The notes under the pieces were generated by a model, which saw nothing but the letters and a program-made list of their open reading frames with translations, was not told where the DNA came from and ran no database searches. Made by a program: the position numbers and the translations under genes. A stretch of DNA of 28,351 bases. It comes from a virus. How positions within the stretch are numbered: the first letter of the stretch is position 1; every line of letters begins with the position of its first letter. This document shows positions 5,534-23,988 of this stretch, piece after piece. The stretch is taken from positions 1-28,351 of the IMG/VR virus record IMGVR_UViG_3300034418_010924. One strand, 5' to 3'.

Positions 5534-5872
5534 GTGCTGAAGTCTCTTCTCGTCGCCTCCGCTCTTTTAGTGGCTGGTTCATCCGCTACTGCCGGCGAGG
5601 TATATGTGAACCCTGAATTCAACGCTGGAGTAGGCACCGACTCTGGTTTCGGTTCAGCCATTTTGGAAACTCACGTCGGCTATGAGTTCGACAACGGCAT
5701 TTACGTGCAAGCAGGTCCCGCAGTCACCTTCCCCGACGGCGGCGAGAGCGACATCGAGCTTTCCGGCAAAACTGGCTTGTCTCACGGTCCTCTGTACGGC
5801 GAAGTTTCATTCATCACTGGCGATGACGAACTGAATCTCGGTTTTAAGGCCGGGGCTAAGTTCTATTTTTGA
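5534..5872 (+). CDS. Secreted beta-strand-rich, porin-like protein (112 aa)
   Basis: Starts with GTG 5534; an in-frame TAG just upstream excludes a longer form. Residues 1-20 are a signal peptide (MLKSLLVASALLVAGSSATA, Ala-X-Ala type cleavage). The mature part is a series of alternating strands with Gly turns, ending in Phe (AGAKFYF), as in small outer-membrane barrels. I recall short secreted proteins of this layout in cyanophages. At about 92 mature residues it is shorter than an 8-strand barrel usually is. It could act in the host envelope; its job is unknown. Confidence 0.65.
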   Translation: MLKSLLVASALLVAGSSATAGEVYVNPEFNAGVGTDSGFGSAILETHVGYEFDNGIYVQAGPAVTFPDGGESDIELSGKTGLSHGPLYGEVSFITGDDELNLGFKAGAKFYF

Positions 5873-7951: not shown

Positions 7952-8014
7952 ACGACTAATTTATGCCAAATCAATCGACATTCAACGTAAACCTCAACGC
8001 AAATTCTTTTGATC

Positions 8015-9196
8015 ATGGACACCTTTACTTTCACTGAATTACAGAACTTTCGTGCGAGCCTCAATCTTTCTTTTCTTGAAAGAACTGACGTTATCGATGG
8101 TGTGCTCGCCTCGATAATTACAGAGCAAAACTGTTTTCTTTTTGGCGCTCCTGGAACTGGTAAGTCTGAACTCGTTCGAGAGGTATCTAAAGGATTTGAT
8201 GGTTCAAAGTTCTTTAGTTACTTACTTTCTCCTACCACGGATCCTTCTGAACTTTACGGCCCCGTGGCGGTGTCAAAGCTGCTAGAAGATGAGTATACCC
8301 GCGATGTTTCCGGATACCTCCCGGATAGCAATATTGTTTTCCTCGACGAGCTTTTTCGAGGGAGCTCCGCCGTTCTCAACTCGCTTTTACAAGTTCTGAA
8401 CGAGCGCACCTTTAATAACGGCAAAGAACTAATACAAACAGAAATCAAATCAGTAGTAGCAGCAACTAACTCTTTTCCTTCTGAAGAATCACTTCAAGCA
8501 TTCTGTGACCGCTTCTTGTTCCGACCGACAATCGAAGGTCTTAAAAAACCTACTAGCAAACGGAAGCTTTACGGTTGGGCTCTCGGTGGAAATAGACCGT
8601 CTGTGATTTCAAAGTTGACTATGGATAGTTTGAAAACTTTGAAGGTAGCGACAGAGCAAGTCGAGGCTTCTGATGAGTTCATCGATATCTTTACAGAATG
8701 CATGGACATGCTCGAAAGCAGGGGCATCATTATTTCCGACCGTCGTCGAGTACAGGTACTGAAGTTCCTCAGAGGTTGGGCAATCGTACAGGGCGAAGAC
8801 ACGTTACACGCTGAGTACCTTCACTCCACTCTTCATCACATCGTGTACCAATCAGAAGAAGATGTTGCGACGATCAAAGAAGTAGTAGATCAAGTTGTCC
8901 CCACGGCTGACAAATTTATTAGGTCGGCACAGAGAGCATCAAATGCTTTGATGAATGAGTTCAACACCCTAAGGACTCGATCATTAGGGAGCATCCCTGA
9001 AGTAAATGGTCACATTCAAAAACTAAAAAAACTTCTTTCAGACCTACGTCAGGTCGCAAACAGCGCAGAGAGTGCTTTAGACGACGGCAAAATGCGTTTC
9101 ACTCCCGCTTCCAGGATGAAGGCTACGAAAGTCTGTCAAGAAATTAACCACAACATCGATCAAGTAGCAGAAGCTCTTTCTAGGTATCAAAAATGA
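8015..9196 (+). CDS. MoxR-family AAA+ ATPase, RavA-like
   Basis: Start ATG 8015 (TGATCATG context); 393 residues. Walker A GAPGTGKS ends with Lys50-Ser51; Walker B IVFLDELF has Asp111-Glu112; sensor-1-like region VVAATNSFP; arginine-finger region FCDRFLFR at about 164-170. The stretch between Walker A and B (SPTTDPSELYGPVA, then LPDSNIVFLDE and LLQVLNERTF) follows RavA, the MoxR subfamily in which a hexameric chaperone-like ATPase works with the VWA protein ViaA. The C-terminal part is helical. The stop overlaps the start of the VWA gene (ATGA), strongly supporting a two-protein complex. Its phage role is unknown. Confidence 0.88.
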   Translation: MDTFTFTELQNFRASLNLSFLERTDVIDGVLASIITEQNCFLFGAPGTGKSELVREVSKGFDGSKFFSYLLSPTTDPSELYGPVAVSKLLEDEYTRDVSGYLPDSNIVFLDELFRGSSAVLNSLLQVLNERTFNNGKELIQTEIKSVVAATNSFPSEESLQAFCDRFLFRPTIEGLKKPTSKRKLYGWALGGNRPSVISKLTMDSLKTLKVATEQVEASDEFIDIFTECMDMLESRGIIISDRRRVQVLKFLRGWAIVQGEDTLHAEYLHSTLHHIVYQSEEDVATIKEVVDQVVPTADKFIRSAQRASNALMNEFNTLRTRSLGSIPEVNGHIQKLKKLLSDLRQVANSAESALDDGKMRFTPASRMKATKVCQEINHNIDQVAEALSRYQK

Positions 9197-10734
9197 ACAA
9201 ATACTCTGAGATTGTCAGACTCGCAGACTCTGAACCGTTAGTGATCACGGTTTCCGCTTTAACAGACTTTCTTTGGCCAGAGTTTGTCCGCGAAACAAAG
9301 CCCCAGGTTAAGTACTTCACAGACCGCTTTGAGATCAGGCAACTAAGCAGGTTTGGAAAAGAGTTGTTTGAGCTTTTCTATTCAGGTGGCGATGTAAAAC
9401 CATTAGTGTCTCTCGAAGACGCAGAGAATTATTTCCGAGCCAAACAAGGCGGCCAAGTAGTAGACGCTCCTAAAGGATTCAAACCAGAAAATACTTTCTG
9501 GAACAATGTACTCTTAGACGTCACGAACAGCCCTGTTTATTCTGCGATCCGAGAAAATTGTCTTGGTAAACACTTTGAGTCGGGTAATACAGCAGTTTGT
9601 GTTTTGAACGAACTTAGTGAAGTTCTTAATGAGATGTTGTCCGAAGACAATAGTGTTTACCAAGCTATGACAGAGCTAACGCAGAATCTTGAAGACTTGC
9701 GTCAGAAATTTGTCGAAGCTATGCAGGCTGGTGACACACGAAAAGCTGCCGAACTTAGGCAAGAAGGAAAAGAGTTAGGACAGCAAATTGAAAATATTCT
9801 CGATACACATCATTCTCGATTCAAGGCTGACATCGAGCAGTGCATCGAGAAAGCTCAAGAAGAAGCACAAGCCATTCAGGACTCACTTAATTCGTTAGCG
9901 GGCGACCACGAAGGCTTCGGGGTTCGTCTCGACGACATCAAGCAAAAGAAAGAGCTAGCTAAAAAACTAAGTAAAAATAAGAAGCTTATGCAGCTCGCCA
10001 AAAGACTGGGAGGAATGAAACAAGCATGGACTAAAAGATTTCGTGCGAAAAAGAGTAGATCTAGTTTTAGTGACATTGTCGGGGCGAAAATGTCCGATGA
10101 CATCACGAAAGCGTTTCCGTCTGAGATTGCACTAGCCGCGACTAAAAAAGGAAAAGCTTTATTCGCATATAAACTTTCCCAAAAAACTATCCTCACTAAA
10201 GACTTTGAAGCAAAAACCCACGAGCTAGACCAAGGCCCTGTTGTTATGTACGTAGACATATCGGGCTCTATGGCAGGAGATTCGGAACTTTGGTCTAAAG
10301 CAATCGCTTATGTAGTCGCTGAACAGTGCTCAAAAGACAATCGGGAGATTCAAATACACCTCTTTGATTCAGCAGTAAACCAAAGCATTGTTTTAGAGCC
10401 ACGCTCGCAGAGCACTGAGGAGCTTCTTCAATTTTTAATGGAGTGGTTTAGTCGAGGCGGCACTTCCTTCGACCAGGTAATGAAGCATGCTTATGGTTGC
10501 GCCAGTATCGACCCAAAAGCTGACTTGCTGATTATCACTGACGGAGAGTGTCAAGTAACGGACGCCACTGTGCGTAAGTTCAATATTTTCAAGGACACAA
10601 ACGAGTTAGATGTCCACGCTTTCTGTATTGGGAAAAAAAGTCACAGTCTCACGAGATTCTGCGACTCTGTTCACCTGGTAGATATCGAAGAGGACACTGA
10701 GAGCTCTGAACTAATACAAAACGCCATAAGCTAA
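9193..10734 (+). CDS. VWA-domain protein, ViaA-like partner of the AAA+ ATPase
   Basis: The 513-residue product has a helical N-terminal two-thirds with a long charged coiled-coil region (about residues 155-270) and a basic stretch, then a C-terminal von Willebrand A domain. The metal-ion-dependent adhesion site is complete: DISGS at Asp355-Ser359, Thr424 in GGTSFD and Asp450 in ITDGE. This architecture (helical front, VWA at the end) is that of ViaA, the partner of RavA. ATG 9193 overlaps the ATPase stop. An intact metal site suggests that it can bind a ligand or substrate for the ATPase to act on. Confidence 0.88.
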   Translation: MNKYSEIVRLADSEPLVITVSALTDFLWPEFVRETKPQVKYFTDRFEIRQLSRFGKELFELFYSGGDVKPLVSLEDAENYFRAKQGGQVVDAPKGFKPENTFWNNVLLDVTNSPVYSAIRENCLGKHFESGNTAVCVLNELSEVLNEMLSEDNSVYQAMTELTQNLEDLRQKFVEAMQAGDTRKAAELRQEGKELGQQIENILDTHHSRFKADIEQCIEKAQEEAQAIQDSLNSLAGDHEGFGVRLDDIKQKKELAKKLSKNKKLMQLAKRLGGMKQAWTKRFRAKKSRSSFSDIVGAKMSDDITKAFPSEIALAATKKGKALFAYKLSQKTILTKDFEAKTHELDQGPVVMYVDISGSMAGDSELWSKAIAYVVAEQCSKDNREIQIHLFDSAVNQSIVLEPRSQSTEELLQFLMEWFSRGGTSFDQVMKHAYGCASIDPKADLLIITDGECQVTDATVRKFNIFKDTNELDVHAFCIGKKSHSLTRFCDSVHLVDIEEDTESSELIQNAIS

Positions 10735-12004: not shown

Positions 12005-13900
12005 ATGAACATCAATTACGTCACCACACGGGCTGAACTCGAAAAGGCTCTGGCCGAGCTGTGGACATTACCAAAACTCTGTGCTGACTTTGAGACGACT
12101 GGACTAGACGCTCGGGTGCATGAGCCCAGGCTTTTACAACTGTGTACTACACAAGAAGACGTAGAAGACAGAACTGTTTATGTAATCGATTTTTTCAAAT
12201 GCAAAGATACTGATGGTTTAAAAGCGTTGATCGAATCTCGAGAAATGCTTTTACTTCACAACGCGAACTTCGATTTACAGTTCTTTTTAAAACTAGGTAT
12301 AGATTTCAAGAAAAAGATTTTTGATACTTTTATAGCGGAGCGATGCTTACGTGCAGGATACAAAGAGAAAAAAGTTAGCCCTAAAACTGAAAAAGTTTTC
12401 TTCGGAGACGTTAGTTGTTCGCTGAAAGCTGTTGTTGAGAGACGACTTGAAATTGAAATCTCTAAGGAACAACAGGTATCAGACTGGAGCGTCGAGGAAC
12501 TGTCTTTAGATCAGATCGAATACGCAGCTAAAGACGTCGACATACTCCCTAAAATCGCTTCACTTCAATTACAAGAGCTAGCTGCTGAAAACTTGCTAGA
12601 TGTATATGCTCTCGAGAGTAAAGTTATTCGCCCGGTGGCACTTATGTGTCACTATGGTTTCGGTGTCGATGTCACTAAGGTAAAAGCTCTGCAAGCTCTA
12701 AAGCAGCAAGAACTTGACACAGCGACTAAATTATTTTGTGAGTCCCTTGATCGGCGATTACCTGATGAACATAAGCTCCCACGAAGAGCTGATGGTACGA
12801 TCGCCATTGGCAAGAACGCAAAAAAAGAATTCAATCCTGGATCTAATACACAGTGCGTCCGATGTTTCAACGAGATCGGAACTGCTCTGCCAGTTGACGC
12901 AAGAACTGGAAAACAAACTTTGTCTCAGGTTGCATTAAGCGAGTTCGATAGTGACGACGAAACTTTAAACCTTTTAAGGAAACGAACAAAACTCGAAACG
13001 GCGTTAGCACACGTAGAAAAAATTATCACCAACATAAATCCTGTGTCTACAAGGATGCACAGTGGTTACAATACCTACGGAGCCAATAGCGGTCGTTTCA
13101 CAAGCTCTGGATCCAAAAGAGTTACCGGAAATAAAAAGAAAGATAATTGGGGTATCAACATTCAACAGGTCCCAAGAGATAAAGAATTCAGAGAATGTTT
13201 TATCCCCACAAAAGGATTCAAATTCGTTATTGCTGACTACTCACAAATTGAACTGCGCTTAGCGGCTGAGTTGATTGGGATACCTCAGATGATCGAAGCA
13301 TTCCAGAACGGAGCTGATTTACACACGCTGACGGCAAGTCTCATCTACCACGTCCCGCTCGAAGAGGTAGAAAAATCCCAGCGCCAAATGGGTAAAACTC
13401 TTAATTTTGCTTTGCTTTACGGTATGGGTTTTAAAAAGTACAAAACATATGCTGCTAGTTCAGGAAACATCATTTCACTGTCTGAAGCAAAAGTGGCTCA
13501 CTCTGGGTTCCACAGGGCTTACCCTCGTTTGAAAGAATGGCACCGCGAACGTAATGCAATGGTTCAAGATGGGTGGACATACGTACGTACGCCGATCGGG
13601 CGACGGAGACTTTTAAGCTACGACGACGCAGCTATGACTACCTGTGCGAATACTCTGATTCAAGGTGCGGGAGCCGATATCTTGAAGCTTGCTATCGCGA
13701 GACTCGGAAAACTTGTTAACAAGAATTTCCGCCCTATCGCCACGGTGCATGATGAACTAATATTTGAGGCTATCGAATCCGAAGCGGAGCACTACAAGGA
13801 CGTTTTAGAAACTGAAATGAGACTTGCAGCGGAGTCGGTTTTGACTAAAGTTCCCGTTAAATGCGACGCCAACATCGGCGACTCCTGGGCTGAAAAATGA
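12005..13900 (+). CDS. polA: Family A DNA polymerase with 3'-5' exonuclease
   Basis: The 631-residue protein replicates phage DNA. The exonuclease domain (about 1-200) has Exo I ADFETTGLD (Asp28, Glu30), Exo II HNANFDLQ and Exo III YAAKDVDIL, all of the DEDDy type. The polymerase domain has motif A DYSQIELR, motif B RQMGKTLNFALLYG and motif C VHDEL. The residue equivalent to E. coli Phe762 is Phe468. The 5'-3' nuclease domain of bacterial Pol I is absent, as is usual for phage enzymes. ATG 12005 has no Shine-Dalgarno and lies 5 bases behind a strong terminator. The stop overlaps the next start (ATGA). Confidence 0.95.
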   Translation: MNINYVTTRAELEKALAELWTLPKLCADFETTGLDARVHEPRLLQLCTTQEDVEDRTVYVIDFFKCKDTDGLKALIESREMLLLHNANFDLQFFLKLGIDFKKKIFDTFIAERCLRAGYKEKKVSPKTEKVFFGDVSCSLKAVVERRLEIEISKEQQVSDWSVEELSLDQIEYAAKDVDILPKIASLQLQELAAENLLDVYALESKVIRPVALMCHYGFGVDVTKVKALQALKQQELDTATKLFCESLDRRLPDEHKLPRRADGTIAIGKNAKKEFNPGSNTQCVRCFNEIGTALPVDARTGKQTLSQVALSEFDSDDETLNLLRKRTKLETALAHVEKIITNINPVSTRMHSGYNTYGANSGRFTSSGSKRVTGNKKKDNWGINIQQVPRDKEFRECFIPTKGFKFVIADYSQIELRLAAELIGIPQMIEAFQNGADLHTLTASLIYHVPLEEVEKSQRQMGKTLNFALLYGMGFKKYKTYAASSGNIISLSEAKVAHSGFHRAYPRLKEWHRERNAMVQDGWTYVRTPIGRRRLLSYDDAAMTTCANTLIQGAGADILKLAIARLGKLVNKNFRPIATVHDELIFEAIESEAEHYKDVLETEMRLAAESVLTKVPVKCDANIGDSWAEK

Positions 13901-15661: not shown

Positions 15662-16202
15662 GAGATACAAGCTCACAGTAATAAAAAGAGACTGCCGAAC
15701 CAAGCTCGGGATAAGAGCTTTAGACGCTGCCCATGCGCAAGCGCAAGGACTAGATATAGCGAGGAGCCTCGGGGCAGAAAGATTTGAGCTCGGCTACGGC
15801 AAAGCGAGACAATCTATTCTTGGAAATTTATATGAGAAGCTTGCTTATAACGACTTTGAGCACGAACAATGTTTTGAATGGGTCGGATCGCTTACTAACA
15901 GAACCCCTTCTGTCTACGCTCTCGGCGCCCGCTACTACGTGCGACCTTTGATACTGGGATACTTAGATATAGAACGAGATGAGACAGTTAAGAATACTTG
16001 TGGTAACTATAAATGCATCAACCCATACCACAATCAATATTTAAAATCAAAAAACTCTAAGTTAGGTAGCGGAGACCTGCGAATTCTCCTAGCATTTCGA
16101 AGCCAAGGCGCTAGCGCAACGCAAATCGCCAAGGCACTTAACGTACACCGATCAACGATCTACCGAACTCTCAAAAATGAACGTCTTTTTGCTGGGGATT
16201 AG
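15648..16202 (+). CDS. HNH-endonuclease-like protein with C-terminal HTH
   Basis: The 184-residue product carries an HNH-type zinc segment, CGNYKCINPYHNQYL at about residues 122-136, where 'C..xC.NPxH' follows the 'H.C.N..C.NP.HL' pattern of phage HNH enzymes. The usual upstream His is not obvious (VKNTCGNY), so catalysis is uncertain. Residues 155-178 form a helix-turn-helix (ATQIAKALNVHRSTIYRTL) like those of homing endonucleases and resolvases. It overlaps the genes on both sides (14 and 26 bases). It could be a domesticated homing endonuclease or a DNA-binding regulator. Confidence 0.6.
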   Translation: MTSTERYKLTVIKRDCRTKLGIRALDAAHAQAQGLDIARSLGAERFELGYGKARQSILGNLYEKLAYNDFEHEQCFEWVGSLTNRTPSVYALGARYYVRPLILGYLDIERDETVKNTCGNYKCINPYHNQYLKSKNSKLGSGDLRILLAFRSQGASATQIAKALNVHRSTIYRTLKNERLFAGD

Positions 16203-16824
16203 GATCACAGACACAGCGCAAGTCGAAGACGGAAAGGTCAACGTCATCGCTGAGTCTCTTCCCTCCTCCAATAAGCGAGTCGCAACTAAAGTCCAACTAA
16301 TCCAAAAGGAGGACCACTATGTCGGCAAACTGCTCAAAGATCTGAGCGAAAAGCAAGAAGTACTTGCAATTGGTCCGACTAAGGCCACGCCGGATGGTGT
16401 AATCCAAATGCAGCCGATGCTGGTTGTTACACCTGAGAACTTCAGCGACATCCTTGCCATCAACACCTTTATGGCTTGCGGTGGTCTTGGGCCTAGAACT
16501 GAGGAGAACGAAGTCGGCGACTCAACTGTCACAAACCGTTCGATTGCTTGGCAAGCTCCCGACGACAACGAAACTAACTGGTTCAAGCTGACGGCTTGGA
16601 ATCAGCACTCAAAGCAACTTGCTGAACTCCCTAACGGCACTCCAACAATTGCAGTTGGTCGAGTCAGTACAAGCGAAAAAGACGAGAAGCAGTATTTGAA
16701 CTATGCAGTAGATCAAATTCTGTATCTCCCCAAAGGCACGAAGTCCGCGCCTAAGAAAGCAGCCGACCCCGACAAAGGACAGGTCTCTGCAGCGGCTATT
16801 GGTTCAATTAACTTTTCTCTCTGA
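16177..16824 (+). CDS. ssb: Single-stranded DNA-binding protein
   Basis: The C-terminal two-thirds of this 215-residue protein show the OB-fold pattern of bacterial SSB: NTFMACGGLG, then TNRSIAWQAP, NWFKLTAWNQHSKQLAEL, and TPTIAVGRVSTSEKDEKQYL. About 90 additional residues precede this segment. The C-terminus is a Lys/Ala/Ala-rich linker ending INFSL, not the acidic DDDIPF-type tail, so contacts with host proteins may differ. It would coat ssDNA during replication with the polymerase and primase-helicase. It overlaps the HNH gene by 26 bases. Confidence 0.75.
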   Translation: MNVFLLGIRITDTAQVEDGKVNVIAESLPSSNKRVATKVQLIQKEDHYVGKLLKDLSEKQEVLAIGPTKATPDGVIQMQPMLVVTPENFSDILAINTFMACGGLGPRTEENEVGDSTVTNRSIAWQAPDDNETNWFKLTAWNQHSKQLAELPNGTPTIAVGRVSTSEKDEKQYLNYAVDQILYLPKGTKSAPKKAADPDKGQVSAAAIGSINFSL

Positions 16825-16830
16825 TCAATC

Positions 16831-17637
16831 ATGGTTTTTATCGCTGGACAATTTGCGGCTGATGAAATTCTTTGTCAGGTCCCACCGCACACACTCCGTA
16901 TCGATCTTCAGCAACGTCGCTGGAAGTCGGATACGGATCCCGATCAGGCAATCACAGATTCCAATGACAACGGAATCCCTATTTCATTTGTACTGCTCGG
17001 GTTTACTCCCTTCTATGGGAACCTCGGTATGCGAAACCGTCAGGAGTTCATTCGGGTCGCGTTTATTGGTGTTGACCCTACTCATCGTCTGCTTCCTAGT
17101 CGATGTGTTGCAACTGCTGTTATCTCTGGCAAGAGTAGTCAAAAGAACTTCATCTCGTATTTTCAGACCTTATACAACAACCGCATTAACGTTGCGGAGG
17201 TAGTCACGCAGACTAAGTTCGTTCAGAAAAGTTTTACTCAGACTGACCCCACAACGGGCGCAGATACGGGTAAGGTCAATTACAACGTACTCGAATTCGT
17301 TGACCGACCGGCTAAAGACGACGAAGAAAAAGCCCTCATTAAAGATATTAACGAGTGGCTCCAAGGGGATGGAGGAGATCTGGTATCAAGTGCACTTCGT
17401 TCTCATATCTCCGGTGCGAATCTGGTTGAGTTACCTCTCGGATCAGACCACGCGGAGATTAAGGCGGCTTTTGACGAAAAGCATCCTCAACTTGAAGGAG
17501 ACAAGGCTGTTGGGCTCAGTGCTCTACCCGCAGGCGCTGGTGAACCCAAATCCACCCCTCCCGAAGTCAAATCAGAAACCAAAGAATTGACCAAGGAACA
17601 GAAGGAAGCGTTGAAAGCAGCGGGGTTATCGGTGTAA
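16831..17637 (+). CDS. Hypothetical protein (268 aa) paired with SSB
   Basis: ATG 16831 follows the ssb stop by six bases and closes the operon before a strong terminator. The N-terminal 170 residues appear beta-rich (IPISFVLLGFTPFYGN, VRVAFIG-like strands); the C-terminal 60 are Glu/Lys/Pro-rich and disordered, ending in a charged helix (KELTKEQKEALKAAGLSV). I do not recognise the family. Its place after SSB suggests a role in DNA replication or recombination; this is inference only. Confidence 0.65.
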   Translation: MVFIAGQFAADEILCQVPPHTLRIDLQQRRWKSDTDPDQAITDSNDNGIPISFVLLGFTPFYGNLGMRNRQEFIRVAFIGVDPTHRLLPSRCVATAVISGKSSQKNFISYFQTLYNNRINVAEVVTQTKFVQKSFTQTDPTTGADTGKVNYNVLEFVDRPAKDDEEKALIKDINEWLQGDGGDLVSSALRSHISGANLVELPLGSDHAEIKAAFDEKHPQLEGDKAVGLSALPAGAGEPKSTPPEVKSETKELTKEQKEALKAAGLSV

Positions 17638-17662: not shown

Positions 17663-17692
17663 AAGCCGTTGGTTAACCCCAGCGGCTTTTTT
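17663..17692 (+). terminator. Rho-independent terminator closing the ssb unit
   Basis: AAGCCGTTGG, a 6-base loop and CCAGCGGCTT form a 10-bp stem with one G-T pair, running into six T. It ends the rightward polymerase-ssb unit. Its T-run overlaps the stop codon of the leftward nblA-like gene. Confidence 0.85.
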
Positions 17693-17930
17693 ATTTCTCA
17701 AGAAGGGTCTTCAAGTTCGGAAGATCAACTCCCATGTCTGATACTTCCTTAGCCAAGTTTTTGAAAAGTCTTTTCTGAACAAGGAAGTTAGCGTGAAGCA
17801 GATCTAAAATCTCAACTAAGTCTTCCTTCTTGTCTACCTTCTGTGCACGGGACATAAAATTATGATGATAAAACTGTTGTTCTAACGTCATATACTCACT
17901 CAACCTTTTAACTAGATCATTCCCATCCAT
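17691..17930 (-). CDS. nblA: NblA-like phycobilisome degradation adaptor
   Basis: Residues 14-62 follow the NblA pattern: MTLEQQF (14-20; NblA proteins carry L..EQQF near the N-terminus), then a helix, a short turn, and a second helix with LVEILDLLHANFLVQKRLFKNL. NblA dimers bind phycobiliproteins and recruit the ClpC protease, which degrades the antenna. Known NblA proteins have about 60 residues; this one has 79, or 66 if translation starts at ATG 17891 (Met14). Known nblA genes occur in freshwater cyanophages and one uncultured marine lineage. It is alone on its strand, between a terminator and a divergent gene whose ATG shares CATG with its own. Confidence 0.75.
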   Translation of the reverse strand: MDGNDLVKRLSEYMTLEQQFYHHNFMSRAQKVDKKEDLVEILDLLHANFLVQKRLFKNLAKEVSDMGVDLPNLKTLLEK

Positions 17931-18456
17931 GAGCTTCTACCGGGTTCCCGACAATATCCTCAATCCTATTGTGAAAAAGGATTTTTTATCAGGACGGATC
18001 CTGTTACCTCTTGACACCGATGGACAGCTGGAGTCTCAGCTAAGGTCTCAGGGATACACAGATTGCATCAGGGCAGACAATGATACCGATCACCTCGATG
18101 CTGCTTGGTGGAAAGGCTTACCTAAGTTCGATTGGACCTTGGCGATTACCCAAGGTGTCCGTGGAAACATCCAATGGATCATCGAACCCGGTTACGAACT
18201 TGCTACTAGGGGTCTTATTATTCTTGACCGCTTGACGTTTCTAGAGCCCACACGGGCAAGATCAGAATTTTTACTTGAGAAACCTTTGTCCAACCTTATT
18301 ATTTTGAACCCAAGGCCTGTATTTCGTGCTGACCAAAGACAAACAAAAGACTCTGTAACTTCTGTGTGGATGATATATGACAAAACGATTTCAAAAGGTA
18401 AAGGGACAAATATTGATTTCGATGTAAGCTGGCAACGACCAAAATCCTTTTTATGA
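17929..18456 (+). CDS. Degenerate DNA-methyltransferase-like protein (175 aa)
   Basis: The overall layout is that of phage class I SAM-dependent DNA methyltransferases. The C-terminal half keeps RLTFLEPT (101-108), LNPRPVF (126-132) and DSVTSVWMIYDK (141-152), which I recall from that family. However, the SAM-binding motif is changed (LLPLDTDGQLE at 25-35 in place of a D-P-x-G-x-G type loop), and the catalytic NPP(F/Y) is missing: residues 68-76 read FDWTLAITQ where DWxxTNPPF is expected. I infer a catalytically inactive relative with a new role, or an active enzyme of different chemistry. ATG 17929. Confidence 0.6.
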   Translation: MSFYRVPDNILNPIVKKDFLSGRILLPLDTDGQLESQLRSQGYTDCIRADNDTDHLDAAWWKGLPKFDWTLAITQGVRGNIQWIIEPGYELATRGLIILDRLTFLEPTRARSEFLLEKPLSNLIILNPRPVFRADQRQTKDSVTSVWMIYDKTISKGKGTNIDFDVSWQRPKSFL

Positions 18457-18792: not shown

Positions 18793-19581
18793 ATGGATAC
18801 ACGTAAAACTATTAACGGTCTTCGGCACTACAAGTGCCCAGGAGTACCTGACTACCTTCCTTCAGTCACTTCAATTTTAAGTAGTACTCAATCAGCGAAG
18901 ACGCAGCAAAAGCTGGCTCATTGGAACATCATGAACCCAGGAGCTGCAGATGCTGCAGCAGCACGAGGGACTTGGATCCACGAAGCAACTGAAAACCACA
19001 TCAGAGGGTTAAGAGTTGTCCCACCAGAAGCTTATGCTCCTTTCTGGAAAGGAGTGCCCGAAAGAGTCGATGAAATTCTTGAAGGCGGAAGGGTGCTCTG
19101 GTCTGAGCGACCGTACAACCAACCGAGTTGGTCTAAATATGTCGGGGATGATGGCGTAGGAAGAATCTTTTATTACGACGAAAATACTAAGCACGGTTAT
19201 GCAGGTTGCTGTGACCTTATCTATATGGATAACAACGCAGAGATTGTTCTAGCTGACTTCAAGACGAGTGCAGGTCCCTACAGTGCTAGATTTCCGAATA
19301 AAAAATCAAACGTTGACGATAAAACTAAGAAAGCACTTATATCGGGAGTATTCAAAGTAAAGAAAACACGATTACAATTAGCTGCCTACAAACTGGCGGC
19401 TGAAGCATGCTTAGGTATCAAGATAAATAAAACACAAATTATCGTGTCGACCCCGATGGAAGATTATCAAACTCAGGTCTTTACGTTCGGCGAGAGCGAG
19501 GTTGAAAAAGACGAGATCGCGTGGCTGGCCCTTGTCGATAAATTCTTTAACGAAGTACGACCTAACGCCGCCAAGTCTTAA
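18793..19581 (+). CDS. PD-(D/E)XK nuclease, RecB/Cas4 type
   Basis: The 262-residue product has the ordered motifs of the RecB-family nuclease fold: RGTWIHEATE with His63, GYAGCCDLIY with Asp141, ADFKTS with Asp155 and Lys157, and QLAAY with Gln195 and Tyr199. These residues bind metal and cleave DNA in exonucleases of this type. Length fits a stand-alone phage exonuclease; no helicase or annealing domain is fused. Neighbouring replication genes suggest a role in recombination, end processing or host DNA degradation. There is an A-rich stretch but no clear ribosome binding site before ATG 18793. Confidence 0.85.
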   Translation: MDTRKTINGLRHYKCPGVPDYLPSVTSILSSTQSAKTQQKLAHWNIMNPGAADAAAARGTWIHEATENHIRGLRVVPPEAYAPFWKGVPERVDEILEGGRVLWSERPYNQPSWSKYVGDDGVGRIFYYDENTKHGYAGCCDLIYMDNNAEIVLADFKTSAGPYSARFPNKKSNVDDKTKKALISGVFKVKKTRLQLAAYKLAAEACLGIKINKTQIIVSTPMEDYQTQVFTFGESEVEKDEIAWLALVDKFFNEVRPNAAKS

Positions 19582-19647: not shown

Positions 19648-22419
19648 ATGCAATTCATTTGTTCGGTAAACAGCAAAGTAGTCAGTGCGCTTGACGCTGT
19701 TACGGGCAAAATTGAAGAAGGTGGTGACTTTAGATCTTTCAACAGTAACTGGAAGTCGAAAGAGCTTGATGCCTTAGGTATCGCCGATGAGGTTGCACTC
19801 AGGAAAGGACTCTGCGCGTGGCATTTAGTTGACGGCAAGAGGGTTAAAGACGGCACCGGTTTAATCCACGCTGGTCTGATTATTATCGATATTGATAACC
19901 AGGCTGACGGTAAAGATAAAGACGGAAACAAGATTCAGAAACAGGAGCTGACTTGGCAAGAAGCTCAAGAACTGGATATCTGTAAGAAGTATTTATCACT
20001 TGCCTATGATTCTCCATCCACAACGGAATCGTGGCCTCGCTTTAGGCTTGTTTTCGGCTTAGAGAAACCTATCATCGATGGTGAGTTTTACCAGTGGTTT
20101 ACTCGTGCAATCTCAAAAGATATTCCTGGTTCTGATATAAGAGCAACGCAAGTTCCTAACCTTTTCTACGGAACTAAATCTGCAGAAGGGCTCTTAACAA
20201 TCACAGACAAATTTATCCCAGCTGAAAAGATTGACGAAGCCTTAAAAGTATTCCATTCACTTCCGAAGGAAGAAAAAGGTGATCGCTTCGATGTGGTTGA
20301 AGCGTTAAACAATGTAACTGTAGAAGAAGATGGAATCGACTTTGAAAAACTTCTAGCAAAATCTGTTGCAGATATCCTTCACGGAAAGCCCGTCGACGAC
20401 AGAAGCCTTGCCGTTACAAGAGCTGTTAAAGAAATCCTGGGTTGGACTAATTGGCTTCGTGACAAAGGGATCTCGTCACGGGTCTCACCCTTGACAGTAG
20501 CACATCGTGCGTTCTATGCTGTCTATGCGTATCCAGCGGAGGTAGACGGCAAATTTACACGCATCGTCGAAAGCATCAGAGATGTTGAGGCGATCAGACC
20601 AGCTATTGTTATGGCATCGGAGCATGACGATATTGCAGCCTGGAAAAGGCTGAAATCCGTCAATATCGATGTCTTTAAGGATGTCGCACCTGACGAAATC
20701 CAAGAATCGGTAAAACAAGCACGAGCTAAAGCTATCGATTCCATTTTGACTTTCGATGACTTTTCGCTGGACGAAAAAACTTCGGTGTCGCACACAACAA
20801 CATCAACAAAAACAAAAATGAAAAACTCAGAAACTTCTGTCCCTGAGACACCAGCTCAGTTAGTCAACCTGCAGAATGCACAGCAGCAAAACAGAGCTTT
20901 TGCCGAAAACGATGTAGCTGAGATCATCGCTACAAACCAAGGGGATAACTACCTTTACGACAGCACCCACGACAATTTCTACACCTACGACGAAGACAGC
21001 GGAGTCTGGTACGTCCAGGACGAAATGCATGTCAAGCGAAGGATTGTTAACGCCCTAGACACCTTTGTTTCAGCTGGAGTGCTCCCCAAGTACGCAGCAT
21101 CAACAGTAAACAGTGTTTACGCGATGCTTCAAGCCAAGATGCTTAAATCTCTGGACGGAGGACGGACAAGCATTTTCAGCAAGGGCAGAAAACACATACC
21201 TTTTGCTAACGGAGCTTTAGACAGCGACAACTTTGAATTCAAACCTGGAAAAAACAAAGAACTCTATTTCAGGTCTCGCCTTCTCTACGACTGGGACCAA
21301 GACCGCGAGTGCCCCAAGTTTTTGGCTTGGATGGATGCGTCACTTCGTCAGGGTCAAGCAAAACTAATTCAAGCGTTTGCTCGAGCGCTTCTTACTGGCT
21401 ACACGTCAGGTGAGCGGTTCTTGCACTTAGTAGGACCAGGCGGCACAGGTAAGTCGACGATGCAGCAGCTCATGATTGCTCTCGCGGGATTCAATAGCAC
21501 CCACACGTCGAGCTTGGAATTAATCGAGATGAATAAGTTCGAGACTTACAACTTGATTGGCAAAAGACTACTCCTCCTTACTGACGAATCAAATTACAAC
21601 AAGCGGATGGACGTGCTCAAAAAGCTGACTTCAGCTTCGGACACTCTGCGAGCTGAACGGAAGTACGGAAAAGAAATTATTAGCTTTAAGCCTGAGTGTT
21701 TGGTGTGCATAGCTAGTAACGAACACATCAGCTCCAACGACTCGACCAGCGGTCTGGAACGACGTCGCCTGACAATTGTTATGGACAAGGTTGTCCCAGC
21801 TAGTCAACGTCGCCAGCTTCTTGACGTCTATGACGACAGGCTCGAAGGAGAGTTTGTGGAAGAGCTTCCAGGCATTGTTTCTTGGGCTCTCTCAATGTCT
21901 TTTGCTGAGATGAGGGATGTATTAGCTAACCCTGTTAAGCATGCGCCTTCGCTAGCGCAAACGAATATCGATGCCCTTGTCTTTAACAATCAGTATGTGG
22001 CTTGGATGGCTGAGTGCTGCTTATACGCTCCTAACACAGCCACACATGTCGGACGAGGCGCCGCCAGACCAAGTACTGACGAATCTGAAAAAGGGATGTT
22101 CGTCAAAAACTCCTACAGCGAGCTCTATGCAAGTTACGCAAACTTCTGTAAATCATGTGGGTACAAACCTGCTGCTAAACCTCGCTTCGTAGAAAGAACA
22201 CTAGAAACTCTGTGCAACATCCTTAAGTTGCCTCATTGCAAAGCAACAACCAAATCGGGAATGCCGGCTATTAAGGGTTTGCGTCTGAAACCTTTTGATC
22301 TAACATCGGATCGCGCCTCTCATGGTGACACGAGGCTTCCGAACCCTGTGGAGTTTGCCCAGGAGCCCGATTTTTCTAAGTGGGAAACTAGTTTTCAAAA
22401 ACACGATGCCGACACCTAA
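19648..22419 (+). CDS. Primase-helicase: PrimPol-like N-terminus and SF3 (D5-like) helicase
   Basis: The 923-residue protein has two parts. The N-terminal 200 residues show a primase-polymerase-like DxD (LIIIDIDNQ, near residue 77), PRFRLVFGLEKPI and a following VPNLFYG, as in phage and plasmid AEP primases. The C-terminal part is a superfamily 3 helicase: Walker A GPGGTGKS with Lys602, Walker B RLLLLTDES, and motif C CLVCIASNEHI followed by a Arg pair (LERRRL). Between them lies a low-complexity, Thr/Lys-rich linker around residues 380-400. It would prime and unwind DNA at the phage fork. Overlaps the next gene by 14 bases. Confidence 0.88.
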   Translation: MQFICSVNSKVVSALDAVTGKIEEGGDFRSFNSNWKSKELDALGIADEVALRKGLCAWHLVDGKRVKDGTGLIHAGLIIIDIDNQADGKDKDGNKIQKQELTWQEAQELDICKKYLSLAYDSPSTTESWPRFRLVFGLEKPIIDGEFYQWFTRAISKDIPGSDIRATQVPNLFYGTKSAEGLLTITDKFIPAEKIDEALKVFHSLPKEEKGDRFDVVEALNNVTVEEDGIDFEKLLAKSVADILHGKPVDDRSLAVTRAVKEILGWTNWLRDKGISSRVSPLTVAHRAFYAVYAYPAEVDGKFTRIVESIRDVEAIRPAIVMASEHDDIAAWKRLKSVNIDVFKDVAPDEIQESVKQARAKAIDSILTFDDFSLDEKTSVSHTTTSTKTKMKNSETSVPETPAQLVNLQNAQQQNRAFAENDVAEIIATNQGDNYLYDSTHDNFYTYDEDSGVWYVQDEMHVKRRIVNALDTFVSAGVLPKYAASTVNSVYAMLQAKMLKSLDGGRTSIFSKGRKHIPFANGALDSDNFEFKPGKNKELYFRSRLLYDWDQDRECPKFLAWMDASLRQGQAKLIQAFARALLTGYTSGERFLHLVGPGGTGKSTMQQLMIALAGFNSTHTSSLELIEMNKFETYNLIGKRLLLLTDESNYNKRMDVLKKLTSASDTLRAERKYGKEIISFKPECLVCIASNEHISSNDSTSGLERRRLTIVMDKVVPASQRRQLLDVYDDRLEGEFVEELPGIVSWALSMSFAEMRDVLANPVKHAPSLAQTNIDALVFNNQYVAWMAECCLYAPNTATHVGRGAARPSTDESEKGMFVKNSYSELYASYANFCKSCGYKPAAKPRFVERTLETLCNILKLPHCKATTKSGMPAIKGLRLKPFDLTSDRASHGDTRLPNPVEFAQEPDFSKWETSFQKHDADT

Positions 22420-23154: not shown

Positions 23155-23335
23155 GGAAGAATTCCAAGATCAATTTGATCAAGAAGTCGAGAAACTCTCA
23201 GAAGAGGATCAAAAACTTCTTGATCAAGCCTTGGCAAATTTGATGGGGTTTATCGAGGAAGAAACTACCATCGGTTACTGGATCGAAGAAGATCAAGAAA
23301 TATCAGACAAAAATCGCCAACCATCCAACGAATGA
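23147..23335 (+). CDS. Very acidic small protein (62 aa)
   Basis: ATG 23147 overlaps the previous gene by 8 bases. The product is extremely acidic (SEEEFQDQFDQEVEKLSEED, more Glu/Asp later) and helical, of the kind seen in DNA mimics and small phage inhibitors, but no such function can be assigned. Its last 43 bases overlap the end of the leftward thyX gene. Confidence 0.6.
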   Translation: MSEEEFQDQFDQEVEKLSEEDQKLLDQALANLMGFIEEETTIGYWIEEDQEISDKNRQPSNE

Positions 23336-23988
23336 TCGTCTGTAGCCACAACGGCTTTGATCACGGTGGGGAGCTCTAAACCGAGGATCATCGCGATCTG
23401 ACGAGCGATCATCTGGTGCTCTAGCTGCGTGTCTTCCTTGGCTCTCAGACCTACGTAATGCACCCAAGAGCGCACAGAACCGTTTGCGTGGAGTCTGGTG
23501 GGTGTATACAGAGGAAGAATATTTCTGGCGCATTCCCGTGCCACGCCCGCCTCTAGCATGTCCTGATACAAAGAATAAAGTTGCGCGTCGAGCAAGTAAA
23601 TTCGATCGCGGAACTGAGCTAAGAGATGGGGGTCAATCTCTTCGGTACTGGACTGACGATTTTTCTCTGCCTGTTTTCGGATATGAAACTCAGAGGGACG
23701 GTCATGGATATCGCCCGGAATAGTGTCAAAAGGATTTGTGTATCTCTGCGACAGCTCCTGGAAACACAGAGATTTATGGCGAATCAGCTGAGCCGAGATT
23801 GCCCTCGAAGTAATAATTTCGAAACTGACGTTCGCTTGCTCAAGAATGGACCAGTGTCCATGTTTGATGCAGTAAGAAAGTAGTCTGGCGTACTCTTCTC
23901 GATCAGGGTTCGAAGTCGAGACTCGGGCGTGACGAGCAATTACTTTTTCTGCATCGGGCGTAATCCAGTCCAGCTTTACCGAGTGCAT
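23293..23988 (-). CDS. thyX: Flavin-dependent thymidylate synthase ThyX
   Basis: ThyX makes dTMP from dUMP with methylene-tetrahydrofolate, NADPH and FAD. The signature RHR-x7-S appears as RHKSLCFQELS (Arg70-Ser80), with Lys in place of the third Arg. Other family marks: an N-terminal RVSTSN, GHWSILEQANVSFEI (His45 region) and, near the C-terminus, ARNILPLYTPT and HQMIARQIA. The length of 231 fits the family. Many marine cyanophages carry thyX. Transcribed leftward; its 3' end overlaps the acidic gene by 43 bases. Confidence 0.93.
   Translation of the reverse strand: MHSVKLDWITPDAEKVIARHARVSTSNPDREEYARLLSYCIKHGHWSILEQANVSFEIITSRAISAQLIRHKSLCFQELSQRYTNPFDTIPGDIHDRPSEFHIRKQAEKNRQSSTEEIDPHLLAQFRDRIYLLDAQLYSLYQDMLEAGVARECARNILPLYTPTRLHANGSVRSWVHYVGLRAKEDTQLEHQMIARQIAMILGLELPTVIKAVVATDDHSLDGWRFLSDIS

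Follow-up and report, generated by a model that had tools for sequence, protein, structure and literature searches.

In cyanobacteria, NblA is a ClpC adaptor of ~60 aa that hands phycobiliproteins over for degradation, and the host protein forms dimers organized as four-helix bundles (PMC7966870). Phage-encoded NblA is already known from Ma-LMM01, PaV-LD, S-TIM5, S-SCSM1, and uncultured marine phages; the marine cyanophage examples comprise S-TIM5, S-SCSM1, cyanopodoviruses, and the uncultured lineage that Nadel et al. described in 2019 (PMC9602691). Expression of phage NblAs in cyanobacteria leads to the loss of phycobilin (PMC9602691 and references therein). A later article also concerns the NblA of marine phages (Nadel et al. 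2025, Nature 648:434-442).

The window analyzed here is the whole of a 28-kb IMG/VR record (28,351 nucleotides), in which a short leftward open reading frame (ORF) had been described, from the letters alone, as an NblA-like gene within a replication region. Genes neighboring this ORF were used to search viral contigs, which yielded more than 150 related loci; the conserved upstream gene at 16831–17637 was one of the markers that served in finding them. The features of the window that bear on the argument are as follows.

12005–13900, plus strand: family A DNA polymerase; best GenBank phage matches are Pseudanabaena phages
16177–16824, plus strand: SSB-like protein (Pfam SSB 20.0 bits, under the cut-off)
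16831–17637, plus strand: convergent upstream gene, 268 aa, a conserved marker of the lineage
17663–17688, plus strand: terminator-like hairpin and T-run of rho-independent type, terminating the upstream rightward gene, with its T-run directly next to the stop codon of nblA
17691–17930, minus strand: nblA-like gene, 79 aa (start codon ATG at 17930, last base of the stop codon at 17691)
17745–17888, minus strand: stretch aligned to positions 3–49 of the 50 of Pfam NblA (20.2 bits against a cut-off of 25, E = 2.6e-5 in this genome)
17928–17931: CATG, in which the start codons of nblA (minus) and the divergent gene (plus) overlap by 2 bases
17929–18456, plus strand: divergent partner gene, 175 aa, with a weak match to a family of phage DNA methyltransferases (E = 8.5e-4)
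18793–19581, plus strand: phage exonuclease (phrog_298)
19648–22419, plus strand: primase-helicase, DUF5906/VapE/D5-like; best GenBank phage match is Synechococcus phage S-EIV1
25792–26658, minus strand: endolysin

The coordinates, strand, and length first given for the leftward ORF all proved exact. It is the sole minus-strand gene within a rightward block, and both of its flanks, the terminator and the divergent gene at 17929, were found where the preliminary description had placed them. The name "replication region" is also correct, because the neighbors encode an SSB-like protein, an exonuclease, a D5/VapE-type primase-helicase, and a family A DNA polymerase. A DNA similarity search of this region against phages gave no match. 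On its own, the terminator call is weak, since the scan returned one match where shuffled sequences give 1.1; in one relative (L036), the nblA stop adjoins a similar inverted repeat, GC-rich and with a T-run behind it.

The assignment to NblA is carried by profile comparisons that agree in both directions. The best Pfam match of the window protein is NblA (PF04485; 20.3 bits, E = 8e-4), and it spans 47 of the 50 profile positions. The window protein itself stays below the curated cut-off of 25; orthologues pass it, including the syntenic copy in six long relatives. Seventeen of 32 orthologues match NblA (best E = 1.6e-10), and every other family draws at most one of the 32. When the family profile was compared with 177,635 PDB sequences, the top two were the NblA structures 1ojh (Anabaena, E = 0.001) and 3cs5 (S. 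elongatus), and hhalign of the family against 12 reference NblAs gave 94.6% with E = 6.7e-8 over 59 columns. As a control, all loci together supplied 9,708 distinct ORFs, among which a reference NblA profile ranked the window family first, with E down to 1.5e-9, and the first unrelated ORF appeared at ~0.2. The window ORF scores 17.5 bits with a reference NblA profile, and 5,000 shuffles of its own sequence reach at most 12.7. The motif MTLEQQF lies at residues 14–20, and LVEILDLLHANFLVQKRLF, a stretch of the second helix, at residues 38–56. With tblastn, the window protein has no meaningful match in GenBank phages; a search of 50,697 phage records with one member of its sister clade placed nine of ten matches in phages carrying an NblA of the Ma-LMM01/MaMV group, each of them individually weak (E = 0.2–1). 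The sequence range of viral NblA is now wider than default profile cut-offs pick up.

The NblAs of the Microcystis phages Ma-LMM01 and MaMV-DC, to which the sister clade is matched best among GenBank phages, resemble the window protein in being phage-encoded, in their 79 aa, in their LxLEQ...helix-loop-helix core, and in having an N-terminal extension. They differ in an identity of only ~40% over 48 residues, in the sequences of their N- and C-terminal extensions (the N-terminal one being unrelated), in the type of phage, and in the gene neighborhood, where nblA lies beside nrdA. The length of 79 aa had been called unusual; it is not so for a phage NblA, because that of Ma-LMM01 is annotated with the same length. 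The NblAs of Anabaena (1ojh) and S. elongatus (3cs5) share the core profile match and have counterparts to their L51 and K53 in the window protein, whereas cyanobacterial NblAs are ~60–65 aa long, do not have the N-terminal helix that the window family conserves, and carry W-x-L as their tail where the window family has LPxxxxLL. Marine cyanophages with nblA are likewise aquatic cyanophages, and activity of their NblAs has been shown by others; tblastn with the window family found no match in S-TIM5, S-SCSM1, or the cyanopodovirus isolates. The window NblA is an apparently new, divergent, slightly extended, and lineage-wide form of phage NblA.

The host had been proposed to possess phycobilisomes. 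Independent support for a cyanobacterial host comes from the endolysin, which matches 107 phage records in GenBank, every one of them a Synechococcus phage or another cyanophage. Indeed, a phycobilisome-bearing cyanobacterial host is well supported, since the best matches of the endolysin, the primase, and the polymerase are all cyanophages, and it is probably a Synechococcus-like cyanobacterium. A host or prophage search of GTDB genomes with the polymerase alignment returned just two distant, unrelated matches, and a tRNA, sought as a further clue to the host, was not found. Profile searches of the long relatives (up to 86 kb) for psbA, CpeT, and a tyrosine integrase found none of the three; the lineage therefore looks lytic and departs from the common photosystem-gene strategy. 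The uncultured marine nblA lineage mentioned above reportedly has lysogenic potential, in contrast to the window lineage, where the tyrosine integrase was not found.

An AlphaFold2 (AF2) model built from a 32-sequence alignment (mean pLDDT 91) predicts helices at residues 3–11, 16–29, 35–65, and 73–78. The second and third of these match the helix-loop-helix of the NblA core (residues 14–62) with correct boundaries, so that the predicted monomer agrees with the two-helix fold first proposed, while the N-terminal helix 3–11 and the C-terminal helix 73–78, which follows an LP at residues 70–71, lie outside the core. Both an NblA profile match and a two-helix fold, whose joint absence the preliminary description had named as evidence against its reading, were found. 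Foldseek searches of PDB and BFVD and VIA-align with the AF2 monomer, a tiny helical one, gave no informative match. We take L51 and K53 of Anabaena NblA to be phycobilisome-contact residues; their counterparts in the window protein are L59 and K61, and these positions hold L or I in 69 of 69 members and K or R in 53 of 69, respectively. The LPxxxxLL tail is also conserved, with LP in all 69 aligned members and an exception in one further relative (L085), which has LS. Reference NblAs carry W-x-L after the key lysine, and no W-x-L stands in register in the window family. It is the conserved tail, and not the length, that is distinctive of the window NblA. Conceivably, the tail alters the target or serves to dock the protease.

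Taking the homology, selection, synteny, predicted fold, and host signature together, we consider it highly probable that the product of this gene is a divergent NblA of phage origin that takes part in dismantling the phycobilisome during infection of a cyanobacterium. Given the homology, the protein most likely acts during infection as known NblAs do, breaking up the phycobilisome in the role of an adaptor to Clp. We infer that, upon infection of a phycobilisome-bearing cyanobacterium, the 79-aa protein would dimerize through its helix-loop-helix, helix 2 would bind phycobiliproteins with its C-terminal half (L59/K61), and the host ClpC-ClpP protease would be recruited; the ensuing disassembly of the antenna would free amino acids and reduce the capture of light.

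Some of the same observations would also suit an NblA-derived adaptor whose target has changed, such that other host proteins are fed to ClpC-ClpP and the new C-terminal tail provides the specificity. The retention of LPxxxxLL in nearly all members, unlike the W-x-L of reference NblAs, is in keeping with this idea, as is a lineage without psbA or CpeT. We nevertheless regard it as improbable, because the presumed phycobilisome-contact residues are retained and because known phage NblAs with differing tails still cause phycobilin loss (PMC9602691).

Conservation among the relatives bears on whether the ORF is a gene and on what it does there. Of 88 distinct syntenic regions, 86 have an intact ORF between the same flanks; 85 of these were counted by script, and the remaining one, L085 with its LS for LP, was identified by eye. 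The two broken copies have lost 46 bp (L037) or carry a 1-bp shift (L113), which may reflect real loss or assembly error. Identity among family members drops to ~30%, and pN/pS of the ORF is 0.14–0.32, indicative of purifying selection, with values of 0.19–0.41 for the N-terminal and 0.16–0.45 for the C-terminal codons. Of 69 distinct copies, 65 retain the CATG overlap, and the nblA start codon is therefore fixed. With intact copies in nearly all regions, purifying selection, and a start overlap that is kept, this is a real gene and part of the core of the lineage. Translation from M14 (an internal start giving 66 aa, AAAAGG lying ~10 nt upstream) was considered and rejected, since the sister clade has L at this position; the retained CATG overlap and the purifying selection at codons 2–13 also count against it.

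The start overlap could be viewed differently, namely as a regulator–target arrangement in which the ORF encodes a small helical regulator of the divergent partner gene that is merely NblA-like. The start–start overlap is typical of coupled divergent genes, and the AF2 monomer has no Foldseek match to NblA. Such a regulator is nonetheless very unlikely: the protein has no helix-turn-helix or other DNA-binding match, NblA alone draws matches from two or more members (with a profile–profile E that rounds to 7e-8), and the deepest relatives (L181, L184, and L186) retain the ORF without the overlap. Although the ORF is short, opposed to its neighbors, overlaps a start codon, and is broken in 2 of 88 copies, the notion of a spurious antisense ORF across a regulatory region is already contradicted by its low pN/pS, the length maintained in 86 regions, and its conserved helix pattern.

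As a consequence of the overlap, the ribosome binding site and promoter region of either divergent gene fall within the coding sequence of its partner, and the CATG has been retained despite deep divergence. In a single relative (L155), ~0.9 kb of extra DNA lies between the upstream gene and nblA and contains a nucleotide-sugar epimerase-like ORF (MDKTINLVTGGAGFLGSHLIDRLMQAG...).

To return to the reading as a phage NblA, the gene is near-universal in a large, uncultured, psbA-less cyanophage lineage and is not a sporadic auxiliary gene there, which suggests that antenna dismantling belongs to the core program of these phages.

The Pfam NblA profile also matches a second place in five long relatives, ~28 kb from the first and on the same strand, and a second match lies on the corresponding side in G006. 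The window stops short of the position expected for this second gene. The family comprises proteins of 75–80 aa (GLTLEDDFTLTRLKN...CRERAYKSVM) in at least 63 contigs, and the following copies were located.

L239, 5992–6225, plus strand: second NblA-like ORF
L196, 10059–10301, minus strand: second NblA-like ORF
G003:46501, G008:46861, G007:42697, G004:68167, and G005:81699: second NblA-like ORF

The evidence that this second protein is homologous to NblA is modest. About half of its members match Pfam NblA, with E ~1e-3 at best; hhalign against the reference NblAs gives 51% and E = 1.6e-4; and in the reference-profile scan of ORFs it is the best family after the window family. AF2 predicts a helical hairpin of medium confidence. 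The gene is flanked by one for a minor tail protein and one for a tail lysozyme, which makes a structural role no less likely. We put forward only tentatively, and as rather unlikely, the idea that the phages of this lineage have a pair of divergent adaptors of NblA type, one in the replication module and one in the tail module. If true, the two might differ in timing or in the part of the antenna they act on, or might form a heterodimer like NblA1/NblA2 of Synechocystis. The LPxxxxLL tail, like the putative second protein of NblA type, offers a testable handle on the differences between viral and host NblA.

Three further features of the window were observed. The plus-strand gene at 5534–5872 encodes a small protein that appears to have a signal peptide and shows an alternating pattern like that of a beta-barrel (MLKSLLVASALLVAGSSATAGEVYVNPEF...); it may be a phage-borne protein of outer-membrane type. 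At 8009–10734, also on the plus strand, a MoxR-type AAA+ ATPase is encoded beside a VWA-domain protein, and an Aphanizomenon cyanophage is among the best phage matches of the ATPase. Finally, a ThyX-type thymidylate synthase (Pfam Thy1, 136 bits) is encoded on the minus strand at 23293–23988.
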